From an uncultured Microcaldota archaeon (GTDB lineage: Archaea > Micrarchaeota > Micrarchaeia > Anstonellales > Bilamarchaeaceae): DNA of 42,804 nucleotides. Position numbers and translations under genes: made by a program. Shown here piece after piece: positions 11,901-33,759 of this stretch. Each line of letters opens with the position of its first letter. Position 1 is the stretch's first letter. The notes below the pieces were generated by a model that searched no databases, had not been told where the DNA came from, and saw only the letters and a list, made by a program, of their open reading frames with translations. Location: positions 1 to 42,804 of the forward strand of contig CAILMQ010000031.1 of NCBI GenBank assembly GCA_903835385.1. The letters run 5' to 3'.

Positions 11901-12641
11901 CGCCTGTTCAATGGCACCATTGATGAAATCAGGGTGTATAACAAGACACTCTCGGCCGCGGAAATAGTGGCGCTTTACCAGAACAAGGCGAATCTCCTGG
12001 TCTCGGACGAGACCTCCAACCGGGACGTGTGGCAATGCCGCGTCACCCCATTCTCCTCAAGCGCCGCCGGTTCCACGGGCATATCGAACAGCCTCGTGGT
12101 GGGCGGCCCGCCGGCCGTGACCCTCAATTCGCCCGCCAACCTTTCACTTTTCAACGTCTCAAGCGTAACCTTCAACTTCACTGCGATAACCAATCAATAC
12201 GGGACAATGAACTGCTCCATCTTCCTTGACGGAGCCCTGAATCGGACCAACGCCTCGACAATCAACAACACCGCGACCAGGTTCACAATTCAAGGCATGG
12301 CGGACAGAAGCCACTCCTGGTATGTGCAGTGCAGGGACGGCATGAACATCACGGGCACCAGCATGGCGAGGAACTTCACCACGGACACGAAGGCGCCCGG
12401 CCTGTCAATCATTTCTCCGCTCAGTTCCACTTACAATGTTTCAACCCTGCTCCTGAACATCTCGGCATCCGACCCGCATCTGGGCAGGGTATGGTATAAC
12501 AGCGGGTCGGGGAACGTAACCTACACCAACCCAGTTAACCTGACGTTTTGCGACGGCTCACATACCATCTATGCCTGGGCGAACGACACCTTCGGGAACA
12601 TGAATAGCACCAAGGTCAGTTTCAAGATACACACGCACTAG
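8913..12641 (+). CDS. Giant secreted papain-family protease with DUF333 domain
   Basis: The start is ATG 8913 (MEKSPIILIMLVLSFSTTIFA), not the TTG at 8874; GGGAGG lies ten bases upstream and this gives a clean signal peptide. The 1242 residues contain a DUF333 domain (about 24-80, NPAAVYC...PDGTQCDAWAF), then a C1A papain domain (about 165-400) with oxyanion Gln196, catalytic Cys202 (CSSCWAFG), His353 (MDHVV) and Asn375 (KNSWG), all intact. Several beta-sandwich repeats follow (CSIFLDGILNQTN, GSHSWYVQC), with a LamG-like lectin fold near residues 822-1020 (LYLPFEGN...GTIDEIRVYNKTL). Asn-x-Ser/Thr sites are very frequent. No membrane anchor at the C-terminus. It probably degrades extracellular protein or processes surface layers; the target is unknown. 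A longer paralogue faces it at 19565. Confidence 0.9.
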   Translation: MEKSPIILIMLVLSFSTTIFALSNPAAVYCNEMNSEFGGYSYMVQNDVDSNEYGICTMPDGTQCDAWAFLNGECGGNFSYCANSGYAIATVSNGDSEYAACILPGGSGVPSQIPVVKMMNLTGKLGNSITPAAVEAQLSQMAGGMESESQPAQSSYNATDFSSWDWRAPPEGTAYAASNFPYFDDSMGWMTSIKDQLSCSSCWAFGTLGSMEAKYDIVMNESRLKPDLSEQDEVSCDNSCYYDYGGYWVCQGGCGGGWPNVSLWNIQYNGGVVDESCFPYTAGNDACSDACSDHSDRNWSITGFQSAMHVTDAGLEQMLVDNGPVILLVDARTWDSYSGGILGCTQYYSGMDHVVTLVGYNDTGNPSTSYWIIKNSWGANWGEEGYIRVKFDCDSIGYWTYYPESVTPPDFRPTIVVNAPTEDTVATDGPVSFNFTVNNRIFPASICDLIVNGAIANTTLANSGSDTVMCYQLPLGTRNNWSIRCWETGFGIVGSSQTQNLTTPFVLIRSPSNASYNAASIALDYTVASQDACWYSLDGNPNVILPGCGNTTLNSLSDGSHSIFVYENDTEGTAHHGDVSFTIDTAAPAVTLNSPADLFVSNSSTAAFAFTPTDNLAQTMGCSIFLDGILNQTNSSVANNTAARFTIQGMADGSHSWYVQCTDNANNMGTSATRSFTIDTAAPLVTLNSPANHSMSNSSTVAFNFTAINDQYGTMGCSIFLDGILNQTNSSVANNTAARFTIQGMADGSHSWYILCYDGANNKGTSETRDFMIALTPLLTSLSLNASGINNLTTDNLTCNYAMNSFATAAGVSWYRNGAPAMALYLPFEGNSSNALLDYSGNGINGMNSGAVWNSTAGHEGNGAFLFNGSARYVNLGSPASLNFTGFANFTITAWVNVAGGAGTNRPILCKGDHQYCLKPDTANMLELCVYDTAWRCAVSNAALSTGQWYFLVGRTNGSEVSLWVNGVKQSTTATHSGITADAYNVTIGRDDQNPTRLFNGTIDEIRVYNKTLSAAEIVALYQNKANLLVSDETSNRDVWQCRVTPFSSSAAGSTGISNSLVVGGPPAVTLNSPANLSLFNVSSVTFNFTAITNQYGTMNCSIFLDGALNRTNASTINNTATRFTIQGMADRSHSWYVQCRDGMNITGTSMARNFTTDTKAPGLSIISPLSSTYNVSTLLLNISASDPHLGRVWYNSGSGNVTYTNPVNLTFCDGSHTIYAWANDTFGNMNSTKVSFKIHTH
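10767..10886 (+). repeat. 120-base intragenic repeat, copy A
   Basis: This segment matches 11052-11171 with only two mismatches over 120 bases. It encodes one beta-sandwich repeat of the protease. The near-identity at nucleotide level implies a recent duplication or gene conversion. Confidence 0.9.
11052..11171 (+). repeat. 120-base intragenic repeat, copy B
   Basis: This is the second copy of the segment at 10767-10886, offset by 285 bases (95 codons, one module). A third, more diverged copy lies around 12199-12330. Confidence 0.9.
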
Positions 12642-12659
12642 CGGCTGCATTCATGCCAA

Positions 12660-13454
12660 CTAACCCCTTTTCATGCCAGCGAGGCTTTTGACTTCGAACG
12701 AGCCGTCTTCCTTTACCGAGGCACTGAACTGGCCGGCGTATTGCTGATTGAAGAATTTGGTGACCGCTTGTGCTTCCTGCTTCGTGTTTATCTCATCTTT
12801 GATGGTCCCGCCCCCCAAATTTCTGGACCTGTATATTTGCGTGGCGACGAGTTCGACGTTGAGAACGTTCACCTTGCTCCCTTCCGCAGAGGCGAACAAT
12901 CTGCCATCGGACTGCTTGTTCACGGCCTTGGCAACCGCCTCGGCCTCCTGCCTGGTGCTCGTATCATCGCTAATGGTCCGGGTCGCGTGCCTGTTCGCGG
13001 CTTCGGAGACGCTTTTGGCAAGGCCGTTCACATCCAACGCCCTGACCGTGCCGTCTTTATCTACCGAAGCCATGAATCCGCTTTCCTTCAGTCTCGCGGC
13101 TACTCCCACGGCCCCCTGATAGTTGTCAATGAGCCTGGTGGCATAATGAGCATTGCGTATGCGGTCCGTCATATCGCTGACAATGGCGTTGGCGTTCAAT
13201 ACCCTGAGGTCGCCACCTTTCATTACTGCCGTTATATACTGGCCCGGGCGTCCCGCGTTTAACGTATCGCCGACTCTTTTCGCCTCCTTCGCGTCGCCGA
13301 TTTTCACAATCACGGGTTTGGCATTCCCGCTCACGGAGTTTTGAATCGCGGGGATGGTTTTGTCCAAATCAATCGCCCTGGGAAAGCCGGGTTTCCAGGC
13401 CGGCGCCAGAGCCGTCCCTTCTTCCCGTTTTCCCTGCATCGGTGCGAATGCCAT
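12660..13454 (-). CDS. Tandem alpha-beta repeat protein between the two proteases
   Basis: The start is taken at 13454 (MAFAPMQGKREE) because GGTGGTCACG-ATG repeats the ribosome-site arrangement GGTGGGAACG-ATG of the gene at 33637; ATG 13466 is an alternative. The 264-residue product has four diverged copies of a module of about 50 residues. Each is a helix of the type TKQEAQAVTKFFNQ followed by a beta-hairpin of the type FSASVKEDGSFEVKSL. They begin near residues 50, 104, 158 and 216. The fold guess resembles SPOR-like modules, but this is inference. No signal peptide is evident. It lies on the strand of the 2018-residue protease, 54 bases after it, with its own TATA box. Function unknown. 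Confidence 0.7.
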   Translation of the reverse strand: MAFAPMQGKREEGTALAPAWKPGFPRAIDLDKTIPAIQNSVSGNAKPVIVKIGDAKEAKRVGDTLNAGRPGQYITAVMKGGDLRVLNANAIVSDMTDRIRNAHYATRLIDNYQGAVGVAARLKESGFMASVDKDGTVRALDVNGLAKSVSEAANRHATRTISDDTSTRQEAEAVAKAVNKQSDGRLFASAEGSKVNVLNVELVATQIYRSRNLGGGTIKDEINTKQEAQAVTKFFNQQYAGQFSASVKEDGSFEVKSLAGMKRG

Positions 13455-29782: not shown

Positions 29783-30460
29783 ATGGCAAGAACATATTCT
29801 TCAAGGACGAAGCAGGCTATTGTGGCGGCAGCATGCGCCGTGACCATGGCGCTTTCGGGATTCTCGCCGAAAAACGAGACGATACTGGGGCCGGGGGCGG
29901 CGCGGGCGCAGGGTTCGATGCCGTCTTTTCCATCCTCGTCCGGCTCACTGCCTTCTCAGTACGTACCCAGCATCCCATACATTCCATGGTACACGGTTCC
30001 TGATTATGGCTCCTACAGCAGGCCGAAGAGCCGCATGGAATTGAAGATTGAGGAGAAGGCCGGCGAGACGGGCCTGAGAAGCGAAGACGCCGGCACTCAA
30101 GCTCGTGCAGCCCGGGAGCTCGTGAAGATGGGAAAATCGGCCGTCCCTGCGCTCACGGAAGCGCTGAGCGACGGGAATGCCAGCGTGCGGCGGCTCGCTG
30201 CCCGTGCGCTGGGGGAGATTGCCGTTGCCAAGCCGAAGGACCCTAGTGTAATTGACATCGTTTTAGCGCTCGCCGGGCTCATGAACGACGGGAACAAGGA
30301 AGTGAAGGAGTGCGCCGCCAAGGCGATTGAAGACATCAAAAAGGCGCGGGCGCCCAGGCCGGCCCGAAGCCAGAGAAGGACATACTCTGGAAGAGCCTTC
30401 ATGCCATCCGATGTCAATATCCAGCAACAGATCATGGGCGCCGGCCATTTTCCCTACTGA
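29783..30460 (+). CDS. Exported HEAT-repeat protein A
   Basis: The 225-residue protein begins with a shared leader, MARTYSSRTKQAIVAAACAVTMALSGFSPK, almost identical to that of the next gene. It looks like a signal peptide or N-terminal anchor (basic start, hydrophobic stretch). A Pro/Ser/Tyr-rich linker follows (SMPSFPSSSGSLPSQYVPS), then two or three HEAT units at about residues 100-190 (ARELVKMGKSAVPALTEAL, VRRLAARALGEIA, VKECAAKAIEDIKKA). A basic C-terminus closes it. GGGGTGGG lies just before the ATG. Such repeats bind proteins; the partner is unknown. It and the next gene are on the same strand, 34 bases apart. Confidence 0.8.
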   Translation: MARTYSSRTKQAIVAAACAVTMALSGFSPKNETILGPGAARAQGSMPSFPSSSGSLPSQYVPSIPYIPWYTVPDYGSYSRPKSRMELKIEEKAGETGLRSEDAGTQARAARELVKMGKSAVPALTEALSDGNASVRRLAARALGEIAVAKPKDPSVIDIVLALAGLMNDGNKEVKECAAKAIEDIKKARAPRPARSQRRTYSGRAFMPSDVNIQQQIMGAGHFPY

Positions 30461-30494
30461 CCAAGAAAGCGAATAAACGAATGATGTGGAAACG

Positions 30495-31295
30495 ATGCCG
30501 AGAACTTATTCTTCAAGGGCAAAACGGGCTTTCGTCGCGACCGCGTGCGCCATGACCATGGCGCTTTCCGGCTTTTCACCTAAAACCGAGGTCATCCTCA
30601 AGCCAAGGGCGGCCTGTGCGCAGGAGGCCAAGGACAGATGGGAGAAAAACATGGAAAAGATGTACAAACTCGGTGAAATCCACGGCGCCCGCTCAAAAGT
30701 GTTCGTCCGCATTTGCGAGTCCTACCTTGAAGACCTGAAAAGCGGCGATGCGCCCAGGCAGATTAACGCCATGGAGAGCCTTTGGTATCCGTGCACTGCC
30801 GCCACCAATTTCACGAACCGGGCATACTCCGGGGTGATAAGGGCGCTCAAGGACAGGAATTTGAAAGTGCGGGCAAAGGCTTCCGAAGTGCTCGTGCATA
30901 TCCTGGACGACAGCTTGCATGACGTATACGGCATGAGAATCGTTGAGCATCCGGGGCTGTTTTTCCGGGATGCCATTTTTCCGCTGCTTGGAGCCCTGGA
31001 CGACCCGCGCGGGGGGATAGGGATGAACGCCGCCCGCGGAATCGGGAAGATCGGTGTCGATGCAGTAGACACGCTGATTGGAGCGCTGGATAGCAAGGAT
31101 TGGAAGATGCGGAAACGCGCCGCGTACATGCTCGGGACCATCCTGGATAGCGACACCTACCGGGTGGATGAAAGATACTTCTCTGATTCGAATGTCGATA
31201 ATTCGGTCCCGAAGCTCAGAAAAATGAGCCAAAGCGACCCGAATGAGGATGTCCGGAGAGCCGCGGCAAGCGCCGTAGAAAGCATTACCAAATAG
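30495..31295 (+). CDS. Exported HEAT-repeat protein B
   Basis: The start is ATG 30495 (MPRTYSSRAKRAF), which aligns with the N-terminus of the preceding paralogue; the GTG at 30486 adds nothing. The first 35 residues nearly repeat the upstream gene's leader, while the rest differs, so the leader has spread by duplication. The 266 residues contain a helical amphipathic region (EKNMEKMYKLGEI) and about four HEAT-type units (RALKDRNLKVRAKASEVLVHIL, GALDDPRGGIGMNAARGIGKIG, IGALDSKDWKMRKRAAYMLGTIL, DPNEDVRRAAASAVESI). No catalytic motif. Probably a surface or membrane-associated scaffold. It converges with lipA 16 bases downstream. Confidence 0.8.
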   Translation: MPRTYSSRAKRAFVATACAMTMALSGFSPKTEVILKPRAACAQEAKDRWEKNMEKMYKLGEIHGARSKVFVRICESYLEDLKSGDAPRQINAMESLWYPCTAATNFTNRAYSGVIRALKDRNLKVRAKASEVLVHILDDSLHDVYGMRIVEHPGLFFRDAIFPLLGALDDPRGGIGMNAARGIGKIGVDAVDTLIGALDSKDWKMRKRAAYMLGTILDSDTYRVDERYFSDSNVDNSVPKLRKMSQSDPNEDVRRAAASAVESITK

Positions 31296-31311
31296 CGGAT
31301 GCGATAGCATC

Positions 31312-32220
31312 CTATTTTCCCAGTACGCACGCTTTTGCGGCGTGGTAGGAACTTCTCACCAGCGGCCCCGAGACAACGGAACAAAAACCTAACCCGTTCG
31401 CGATTCGCGCGTAATCGTCGAATTCGCCCGGTTCCACGTATCGCTCGATTGGAATTTGTTTTTTTGTTGGCCTGAGATACTGCCCCATCGTAAGGATATC
31501 CACTTCCGCAGCGCGCAAATCCCTCATTGTTGCGATGATTTCGTCCCGCGTTTCGCCCAGGCCGAGCATGAGCGAGGACTTGGTTTTCAGTGTCCTGTGT
31601 CCGGTTCTCGGATGCGAAGCATCCGGGAAACTTGCGCCTGAAAGGCGCATGGTGTCCTGGACCTTGAACGAACGCAAAACCTCCAGCGATTTCCGATAAC
31701 TCGCCCTCGCGTCGCGGACTTTTGGCGTGAGTCGTTCGGTTGTCTCTATGTTATGGCCCAGGACGTCCACGCCAGAACGCACGAGCCCGCGAATCGCTTT
31801 TTTGTCGTTGTTGAAATCAGGGACGAGCGCTTCGACGAGAACACGGGGATTGTTTTTCTTTATGGCCTTTATGCAATTCGCAAAATGTCCCGCCCCGAAA
31901 TCAGGAAGGTCGTCGCGGTCAACGGAAGTGAGGACGACATAGCGGAGCCCGAGTTCCGAGACCGCTGCAGCGAGACGCGCTGGTTCCGTCGGGTCCGGTA
32001 TTTTCGGCTTCGGATTCGTCTTAATTGCACAAAATCTGCAGTTCCTTGTGCACTCGTTCCCGAGCACCAGGAACGTCGCGGTACCGGCTGACCAGCACTC
32101 CTGGCAGTTCGGGCAAAGCGCGCCCTGGCACACGGTGACCAATTTGTATTTCGCGAGCAGCTCTTTCATTTTGGCGCTTGCGGGATTGTAACGGATTTTC
32201 AGCCACTGCGGCTTGTCCAT
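31312..32220 (-). CDS. lipA: Lipoyl synthase LipA
   Basis: LipA inserts two sulfurs into octanoyl groups on lipoyl domains, using two [4Fe-4S] clusters and S-adenosylmethionine. The 302 residues have the auxiliary-cluster motif Cys31-x4-Cys36-x5-Cys42, the radical-SAM motif Cys57-x3-Cys61-x2-Cys64 (CTRNCRFC), LTSVDRDDLPDFGAGHF, NIETTERL, KSSLMLGLGET, and the C-terminal RSSYHA whose Ser ligates the auxiliary cluster. Between VLRSFK and LKTKSSLM there are about 19 residues more than in E. coli LipA (about residues 187-210). They are encoded by two perfect hairpins, and look inserted in frame. A TATA-like ATAAATAAAG lies about 25 bases before the ATG. The likely substrate is the E2 at 26326. Confidence 0.93.
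   Translation of the reverse strand: MDKPQWLKIRYNPASAKMKELLAKYKLVTVCQGALCPNCQECWSAGTATFLVLGNECTRNCRFCAIKTNPKPKIPDPTEPARLAAAVSELGLRYVVLTSVDRDDLPDFGAGHFANCIKAIKKNNPRVLVEALVPDFNNDKKAIRGLVRSGVDVLGHNIETTERLTPKVRDARASYRKSLEVLRSFKVQDTMRLSGASFPDASHPRTGHRTLKTKSSLMLGLGETRDEIIATMRDLRAAEVDILTMGQYLRPTKKQIPIERYVEPGEFDDYARIANGLGFCSVVSGPLVRSSYHAAKACVLGK
31590..31659. repeat. Double-hairpin element inside lipA
   Basis: CGGATGC-GAA-GCATCCG (31609-31625) and TGCGCCT-GAA-AGGCGCA (31633-31649) are two adjacent perfect 7-bp stems with the same GAA spacer. They are bracketed by direct repeats GTGTCCTG at 31590-31597 and 31652-31659. The frame stays open through the element. It coincides with residues absent from other LipA proteins. 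Confidence 0.75.
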
Positions 32221-32284
32221 GGGATGGACTGGGACGCCAAGATAAATAAAGAGCGCTTAGGCATGGCCCGCAGCCGGCATCGTG

Positions 32285-33637
32285 TCAATGGATGCTGTTG
32301 GGATCTATGCGCAACATCGCGGCTATGGCGGTCTTCTGCACGAGGTCGTCCTTGTCGTTGGCCGCCTTTATCAGCGCGGGCATCGCACTCCTGTCGCCTA
32401 TGTTGCCCAGCGCCTCGATGGCGGCCGCGCGCAGCCGGTGGTCGCCCTTGGGCACCAGCCTGAGGAGCGGCTTGACCGCCTTCTCGTCGCCTATCCGCCC
32501 GAGCGCGTCGGCGGACGCTATCTGTACCTCCAAATTGCGATTGTTCAGCCCTGCCAGCAGCGCAGGGACCGCGGCCTTGTCCATTTTCATGAGCGCGCTT
32601 GTCGCGGCTCTGCGCGTGGCGGCGTCATCGCTGCCCATCGCCTCGACGAGCTTTGAAGGTTTTAACGAATCCACGCCCTTGGCTCCGGGCGGCTTGGCGC
32701 CTCCTTTTCGGATTAGCGCTATGGCTTCGGAGCTGGCGGTTCGCACGACCTCGCTCTCGTCTTCCTTCGCCGCCCTGGCAAGCGCGGGAAGCGCTCTCTC
32801 GTCTTTGGCGCCCCCGAGCGCGGTTGCGCACCCTATCCGCACTACGGCCACTTTGTTCCCAAGCCCTTTTATCAGCGCGGGCACCGCGGCCTTTCCCATT
32901 TTCATGAGCGCGGCCTCTGCCATGATGCGCGTTGGAATGTCATCCTTTTCCATGGCGGTGATGATATACGGCGCTGCCGGAGCCCCGATTTCAGAGAGTG
33001 CGGCGCCGGCGAAAGCGTTCGCCTTGTTCCTGGTGTTGCCCAGTTCACGGACCAGCGGCGCTATTGCGGCCTGGCCGAATTTGGGGAGCGTCTCGGATGC
33101 CGCATTCTGGACCCGCTCGTCATTGTCCGCCAGTAGCCCGGATATCTCCAATGCGATGCCCTCATCTGCGCCGGATCCGAGCCTGTTCACCGCCTTCAGG
33201 GAGTTGAGCATTGCGAGCGCGCCTATGCGCACTATCACGTCGGCATGCTTGAGGCATTTACGAAGCTCGGGGATTGCCGGCTCGCCCAATTGGATAATCG
33301 TGAGTATTATCTGTGCCTGCTGTTCGCTTCCATTCGACTTGGCCGTCGGCATGGCCTTGAGCAGCAGTGGAATGATGGACGGCCCCATCGCTTCGAGTGC
33401 GTGCTGGGCCCGTAATATCTTCACCCCGTCGGTGCTGTCGAGCTGGATTATGAGCGCGTCCACCCTTTTCTTTATGCCTGCCTCGTCTTGGGCGCTTTGC
33501 TTTTGCGCCGCGGCGGCAGCCGGCATGCCGACGTTCCCAATCCTGTCAATCTTAGGCTTCCAGCACACGAGCGCGGCTGCGCACGTGAGCATCGCGGCGG
33601 TCTTCCTGATTGCGGAGTTGTATCTTGTAGCTTGCAT
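32285..33637 (-). CDS. Exported HEAT-repeat protein C
   Basis: The start is ATG 33637 (MQATRYNSAIRKTAAMLTCAAAL), with GGTGGGAACG immediately before it; the upstream ATGs of the track ORF lie within the leader. The 450 residues begin with a basic then hydrophobic leader of the same style as the two HEAT proteins at 29.8-31.3 kb and continue with about ten HEAT units covering residues 80-445, for example VRIGALAMLNSLKAV, VQNAASETLPKFGQAAIAPLVREL, TRRAATSALMKMDKAAVPALL and LRAAAIEALGNIGD. Spacing of 30-35 residues is regular, so the fold is a long solenoid resembling PBS-lyase HEAT repeats. There is no lyase partner in the window. Role probably binding or assembly. Confidence 0.88.
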   Translation of the reverse strand: MQATRYNSAIRKTAAMLTCAAALVCWKPKIDRIGNVGMPAAAAAQKQSAQDEAGIKKRVDALIIQLDSTDGVKILRAQHALEAMGPSIIPLLLKAMPTAKSNGSEQQAQIILTIIQLGEPAIPELRKCLKHADVIVRIGALAMLNSLKAVNRLGSGADEGIALEISGLLADNDERVQNAASETLPKFGQAAIAPLVRELGNTRNKANAFAGAALSEIGAPAAPYIITAMEKDDIPTRIMAEAALMKMGKAAVPALIKGLGNKVAVVRIGCATALGGAKDERALPALARAAKEDESEVVRTASSEAIALIRKGGAKPPGAKGVDSLKPSKLVEAMGSDDAATRRAATSALMKMDKAAVPALLAGLNNRNLEVQIASADALGRIGDEKAVKPLLRLVPKGDHRLRAAAIEALGNIGDRSAMPALIKAANDKDDLVQKTAIAAMLRIDPNSIH

Positions 33638-33759
33638 CGTTCCCACCATTTCAGGCATTATCATTGATAACCATTAAAAATAAGTCATGCCGGCGGGACA
33701 GCGATTCTTTTAGGGGCTACAGGTTTATAGAAAAGAAATCGGGGTGCGCCAAGGACGTT

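Follow-up and report, generated by a model that had tools for sequence, protein, structure and literature searches.

The palindromic elements of Rickettsia (RPEs) are about 100–150 bp in length, and within each family the sequence is recognisable and the encoded peptide is conserved (PMC10969869). REP/REPIN sequences, with TnpA-REP (RAYT), are small dispersed hairpins with a kept mismatch and many variants, apparently strand-specific, and the ends of IS200/IS605 elements, like the MITEs derived from them, have hairpin structure and insert by a short motif without target duplication. In a survey of Y1 transposases, only the IS200-type class was present in Archaea (PMC6006769). Heptanucleotide repeats are known in Nostoc (GGGGA(C/T)T) and in Xanthomonas (PMC4692102). 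The insertion described here, in the lipoyl synthase gene (lipA) of an archaeon, has a probability of about 0.7 of being a copy of a non-autonomous, dispersed element that belongs to this archaeal family, is ~48 nt long and is made up of two hairpins. As judged from the sequences, this 48-nt element is genuinely repeated and dispersed, and is incorporated into proteins.

The window (the whole stretch of DNA analysed, 42,804 nt) is from a genome of 1.287 Mb (55% GC, 88.8% complete), the genes of which were predicted with a simple codon model. The host is an archaeon, since its own AlaRS matches the archaeal model TIGR03683. The lipA insert consists of two layers, a 48-nt double hairpin and flanking degenerate heptamers (GTKTYCN), with the following features.

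31312..32220, minus strand: lipA, lipoyl synthase, 302 aa, the insertion host (NCBIfam NF004019 and TIGR00510; PDB lipoyl synthases to E 6e-77)
31583..31603, plus strand: 5' heptamer units GTTTTCA GTGTCCT GTGTCCG (heptamer scan, array score 33)
31604..31651, plus strand: 48-nt double-hairpin element, antisense to lipA (architecture; homologous insertions of 48 bp, for which relatives show empty sites)
31605..31629, plus strand: hairpin 1, TTCTCGGATGC GAA GCATCCGGGAA, 11-bp stem with a conserved T.G wobble at pair 4
31630..31632, plus strand: joint ACT (RCT is conserved among the own-genome copies in alignments)
31633..31649, plus strand: hairpin 2, TGCGCCT GAA AGGCGCA, 7-bp stem
31652..31658, plus strand: 3' heptamer unit GTGTCCT, adjoining the element (a heptamer-like GT... 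unit is found here in each own-genome copy)

The first-pass annotation had described two perfect 7-bp stems with GAA loops, bracketed by direct repeats, as an element of 70 bases. Both stems and their loops are present (within 31605–31629 and 31633–31649), but the first stem is really 11 bp with one T.G wobble, and the element proper is 48 nt in length. The direct repeats exist as two copies of GTGTCCTG (31590–31597 and 31652–31659), but these are heptamer units, and a spacing of 62 nt, not being a multiple of three, breaks the frame; a target-site duplication was rejected on both counts. As single-stranded DNA, the 61-nt core has a folding energy of -18.2 kcal/mol, compared with -8.05 +/- 1.76 for shuffles (z -5.8). 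Short-looped perfect hairpins of 7 bp are no commoner than expected by chance (292 in the genome, 296 in a Markov-3 control), so the hairpins by themselves are unremarkable. Stems of at least 9 bp are in excess genome-wide relative to the same type of control, mostly in intergenic DNA. What is remarkable is the recurring combination of hairpins, not the hairpins alone.

An alignment of more than 100 LipA homologs places 18–19 extra residues between SLEVLRSFK and KSSLMLGLGE, and none of the aligned homologs has them. The earlier estimate of about 19 extra residues, with the frame kept, is therefore borne out, the lipA reading frame being open across the insertion. The nearest comparison is with nine same-family genomes and one same-class genome (the genus is represented by a single genome, that of the source archaeon). 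Here the stretch is 46 residues long, compared with 28 in the nine same-family relatives and 27 in the same-class relative, and at the DNA level it is 138 nt compared with 81–84 nt in ten of the closest relatives. When nt 31604–31651 are deleted in silico, a perfect four-unit array, GTTTTCA GTGTCCT GTGTCCG GTGTCCT, is left behind, in an open frame that encodes KVQDTGHRTLKT. Because the heptamer array is left unbroken, the gain in lipA most likely comprises two to three heptamer-derived residues and 16 that would derive from the element. The empty site of lipA is a reconstruction, the genome being the only one in its genus.

In the AlphaFold2 model of LipA (mean pLDDT 88), residues about 195–211 form a low-confidence loop between a helix (175–194) and a strand (212–219), a predicted position that agrees with the surface loop proposed at first pass. 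In a LipA-type barrel, a helix-to-strand loop is on the face opposite the active site. The effect of the insertion on the protein is most likely neutral. Alignments to PDB structures locate the insertions in LipA, in a TtuA-like protein and in Lhr, at the resolution given by homologs too distant for exact borders. Several of the proteins flanking lipA (29783–33664 of the window) begin with signal-like sequences and contain alpha-helical repeats that look HEAT-like by eye; they are possibly a paralogous cluster.

The first-pass annotation had also called for a genome search for other copies, and the outcome depended on the method. By DNA similarity there is no second copy of the lipA insert in its own genome, a result that would have counted as a refutation under the condition set at first pass, absence of the element from the rest of the genome. 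The joint and the end, CTTG...CATGG, recur elsewhere in the genome with different stem letters. A similarity search is misleading in this case because the copies share structure and joints, but differ in their stems. An architecture scan for CTTG, a perfect stem and TGG, in which hairpin 1 was not demanded, returned 11 places: six with a hairpin 1 of 10–12 bp directly upstream, one cut by a contig end, and four without hairpin 1. Six complete copies compare with 0.2 expected in random genomes. Hairpin 1 was present in every uncut match ending in TGGT, and in no match ending in TGGG or TGGC. The genome thus carries seven copies (including the cut one), three of them in frame in genes.

C31:31605: copy in lipA, antisense
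C13:8658: copy in aconitase, sense
C32:32206: copy in GlyRS, antisense
C1:41387: intergenic copy, just 3' of tRNA-Asn
C32:35010: intergenic copy, after a tRNA
C68:107: intergenic copy
C16: copy cut by the contig end

Among the six complete copies, 10 of the 17 stem pairs show two-sided changes, and no pair shows a one-sided change. The three genic stems differ completely, so no genic copy is a recent copy of another, and the peptides added to LipA, aconitase and GlyRS are unrelated to one another. An ordinary, lineage-specific extension of a LipA loop in which palindromes happen to occur is scarcely credible: it would suit a disordered helix-to-strand loop and the chance-level frequency of perfect 7-bp hairpins, but it is contradicted by the architecture scan and by the 48-bp gain in aconitase (see below), the same 48-nt architecture being found in two other genes and in relatives, far above chance. 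Elsewhere in this genome, two predicted genes (G000 C22:5109–5192 and C22:9381–9464) each have a run of three hairpins (CATGTTGCCGGGCAACATG, ATTGTTCGAATCGTCGAACAAT, ATTGCCCGAATCGTCGGGCAAT), almost identical between the two, that may represent a further palindromic family.

Unlike lipA, where the empty site is reconstructed, aconitase and GlyRS can be compared directly with relatives lacking the insertion. In aconitase, 16 aa (48 bp) are absent from six relatives at 69–76% identity, and there is no heptamer array on the left side of the gain. In GlyRS the region is 132 nt, compared with 84 nt in two relatives, G088 (L291) and G071 (L294), and the 48-nt difference falls exactly between the heptamers GTTTCCA and GTTTCC. 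Both gains are exactly 48 bp, show no target duplication and lie directly 5' of a GTTTCC-type motif. All three genic blocks are 48 nt, followed by GTTTCCG or GTGTCCT on the 3' side, and the copies in GlyRS and lipA both sit within a heptamer array. The GlyRS loop (L206:12159–12290; L288–L301) is itself a hot spot for repeats in the family. Of 14 relatives, seven lack extra residues there and seven have different insertions; in six of the latter, the extra residues are heptamer-like (KLETGN-type).

Whether the lipA mRNA is spliced also bears on these genic copies. An archaeal bulge-helix-bulge intron, removed to give a protein without the extra residues, would yield a LipA that better fits its homologs, and heptamers are also found within tRNA genes, where they probably lie in an intron or in the variable arm. 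This is nevertheless very improbable, as the predicted fold of 121 nt of the lipA mRNA has hairpins but no bulge-helix-bulge at the borders, the copies occur in both orientations, and the three genic copies are all 48 nt and open in frame, neither of which splicing needs.

The heptamers are a second repeat in their own right. A search with the flanking repeat matched a second gene with the run GTGTTCC GTGTCCT GTGTTCC ..., and a whole-genome scan with a 7-bp matrix, trained on the same arrays that it counted, found 37 GTKTYCN arrays at a score of at least 22, compared with none in a Markov-3 control. At a score of at least 20 there are 44 arrays, of which 23 are inside predicted genes and 15 of those antisense. 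Antisense units encode hydrophilic peptides (WKLETGN, RKPETGN, RTQDTGH) and sense units hydrophobic ones (VSSFQFP), and most unit types are stop-free in the frames written out; peptide character and the lack of stops may explain the antisense bias of the genic arrays. Of the 43 family genomes, 19 contain three consecutive units, as does one of 56 other relatives (reversed control, one of 99 genomes). Cyanobacterial heptanucleotide repeats are named STRR, and occur in tRNA introns. The GTKTYCN arrays are degenerate 7-bp arrays and dispersed, as in the heptanucleotide tandem repeat class, and resemble the repeats of cyanobacteria and Xanthomonas in forming inverted pairs, but the archaeal unit is GTKTYCN, is frequent in genes and tRNA genes, and lies beside a separate double hairpin. 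A literature search returned nothing on point for heptamers in Micrarchaeota, STRR or DPANN dispersed repeats.

Heptamers were also observed in or near tRNA functions. A tRNA-Leu gene (anticodon TAG; L151:2332–2458, G000 C25) carries five units (2386–2420) in what looks like the variable arm or a non-canonical intron; it was missed by ARAGORN, which misses heptamer-bearing tRNA genes, and has an Rfam match of 54.7 bits. The sequence CAGTTCAGGGTTTCCTGTTTCCAGTTCCCC occurs at L207:2403–2423 (minus strand) and L207:11844–11864 (plus strand), by eye in tRNA genes interrupted in the T loop, which suggests heptamer-bearing tRNA introns. A TtuA/NcsA-like tRNA thiolation gene (12260–13249, minus strand) has ten tandem heptamers (L127:12778–12847) encoding REQDTEHPTRNTGHTTRNTGHGTR, and a solved homolog lacks 16 residues at the heptamer site.

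Element and heptamer co-occur in 12 genomes (Fisher p 0.011 across the 43 family genomes, uncorrected for descent). Many element copies in other genera have no adjoining heptamer, and the heptamer is therefore not a general requirement; it may be favoured as a landing site, or may hitchhike. A rival account is a local origin, in which no pre-existing element was inserted and slippage and template switching within a heptamer array produced the hairpins on the spot, with inverted heptamers as stems. In several intergenic copies the arms of hairpin 1 are indeed inverted heptamers (GTTTTCAGTTTCC...GGAAACTGGAAA), and heptamer arrays do expand and contract, as in GlyRS. We nonetheless consider this improbable, because copies from many genera, unrelated in their stems, agree in their joint, their TGG end, the U.G at pair 4 and the hairpin order, because aconitase gained exactly 48 bp without an array on its left, and because many copies in relatives have no heptamers alongside.

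A first covariance model, built from the six own copies, matched homologs in other genera. A second, built from 13 copies and used to search the 43 family genomes, found the element in 17 of them, at 0–10 copies per genome. The general anatomy is a hairpin 1 of 11–12 bp with a loop of 3–4 nt, a short joint, a hairpin 2 of 6–7 bp and then TGG. Copies are most often 47 or 48 nt long, the most frequent loop of hairpin 1 being GAA and those of hairpin 2 (C)GAA(G) or (C)AAA(G). In 34 distinct copies, 97.9% of positions in the stems are paired (slid controls, 30–51%), and pair 4 is a U.G wobble in 26. Two-sided changes were seen at all 17 pairs, in 158 cells compared with 38.9 in shuffles, a count that leans towards the model as the alignment was fitted to it. 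Two copies in relatives lie inside open frames. One (L253) is in an MBL-fold hydrolase-like protein, as judged from the motif HEHCDH, with no NCBIfam match; the other (L258:501–549, minus strand, genome G292) is in a 569-aa open frame, the surroundings of which resemble a Hint/intein domain by eye. Near two contig ends (L193:1–260 and L132:1–100) a repeated GC-rich hairpin, GGCCGTGGCGCAAGAGCCACGCAACCGG, adjoins element copies, and the assembly may have stopped there at a longer composite repeat.

Such strong covariation would also be expected of a structured non-coding or regulatory RNA motif, with the genic copies incidental. Mismatches outside pair 4 are G.U in 13 cases and A.C in four, which weakly suggests that folding is important on the element strand, and two intergenic copies follow tRNA genes of the same strand. 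Against this, the genic copies are not confined to one orientation, being antisense in lipA and GlyRS and sense in aconitase, the element has no Rfam match at gathering threshold or at E<=1, and its presence is patchy, from none to 10 copies per genome. An RNA motif is, on balance, rather unlikely.

If the lipA insertion is a copy of a dispersed element, as we prefer, the element would land at a heptamer or GTTTCC, and would move as a folded single strand or as RNA, recognised by its structure. Insertion would be by an enzyme acting in trans that reads shape, and that would be other than a Y1 transposase of its own genome. By analogy with REP and IS200/IS605, a Y1 transposase would be a natural candidate. 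No Y1 transposase (PF01797) was found in this genome (88.8% complete), and the element is present in four of ten family genomes with Y1_Tnp and in 13 of 33 others (p = 1). A Y1 transposase as driver was rejected, being absent here and unrelated in its family distribution to the element. Compared with REP/RAYT, the element shares the features given above, but its foot is TCTTC/GGAGA with a variable 5' flank and no GTAG or CGTC tag, it consists of two unlike tandem hairpins rather than inverted REPs, it has genic copies, and no Y1 transposase accompanies it here. It likewise shares hairpin structure with IS200/IS605 ends and their MITEs, and its three genic copies lie by a short motif without target duplication, but it has no internal gene and is only 48 nt. 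The motif, GTTTCC/GTGTCC, is on the 3' side of the three genic copies, and is absent at many copies in relatives. With regard to MITE hallmarks, no terminal inverted repeat was seen in the element, and the two empty sites show no target-site duplication, only the exact 48-bp gain.

Genic copies would be tolerated because 48 nt preserves the frame, the frame of the element happens to be open and the landing is in a surface loop, and the inserted peptide is probably without a function of its own. Selection on the fold, or correction of the arms by template switching, could each keep stems perfect while their letters change. A bolder proposal, which we put forward tentatively and hold in some doubt, is that the element is a novel type of archaeal mobile DNA: a 48-nt double hairpin recognised by shape alone, inserted by an enzyme beside GTTTCC without target duplication, and in frame in proteins. 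Perfect stems may be maintained in it through templated repair, or because the fold is under selection.

The Rickettsia parallel drawn by the first-pass annotation holds for the manner of occurrence, with copies in frame in lipA, aconitase, GlyRS and two open frames of relatives, and others intergenic, but the element is outside every RPE family. Like RPEs, it is a short palindromic repeat found both between genes (C1, C32, C68) and in frame in unrelated, tolerant protein genes. Unlike them, it is 48 bp, has two separate hairpins with freely varying stems and no conserved peptide, and occurs in both orientations, landing beside GTTTCC motifs. Membership in any RPE family was rejected on its length, the lack of sequence-similar copies and the unrelated peptides.

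Palindromic repeats in frame in protein genes have been described before mainly from Rickettsia, and the present element is a second, independent case, in an archaeal lineage. Its empty sites are exact, its 48-nt unit is defined, a landing motif can be proposed, and its copies in relatives are numerous enough to search for a co-occurring enzyme. Ordinary DNA similarity searches miss such repeats because it is mainly their shape that is conserved. Through them, core enzymes of this archaeon (aconitase, GlyRS and lipoyl synthase) gain new loops.
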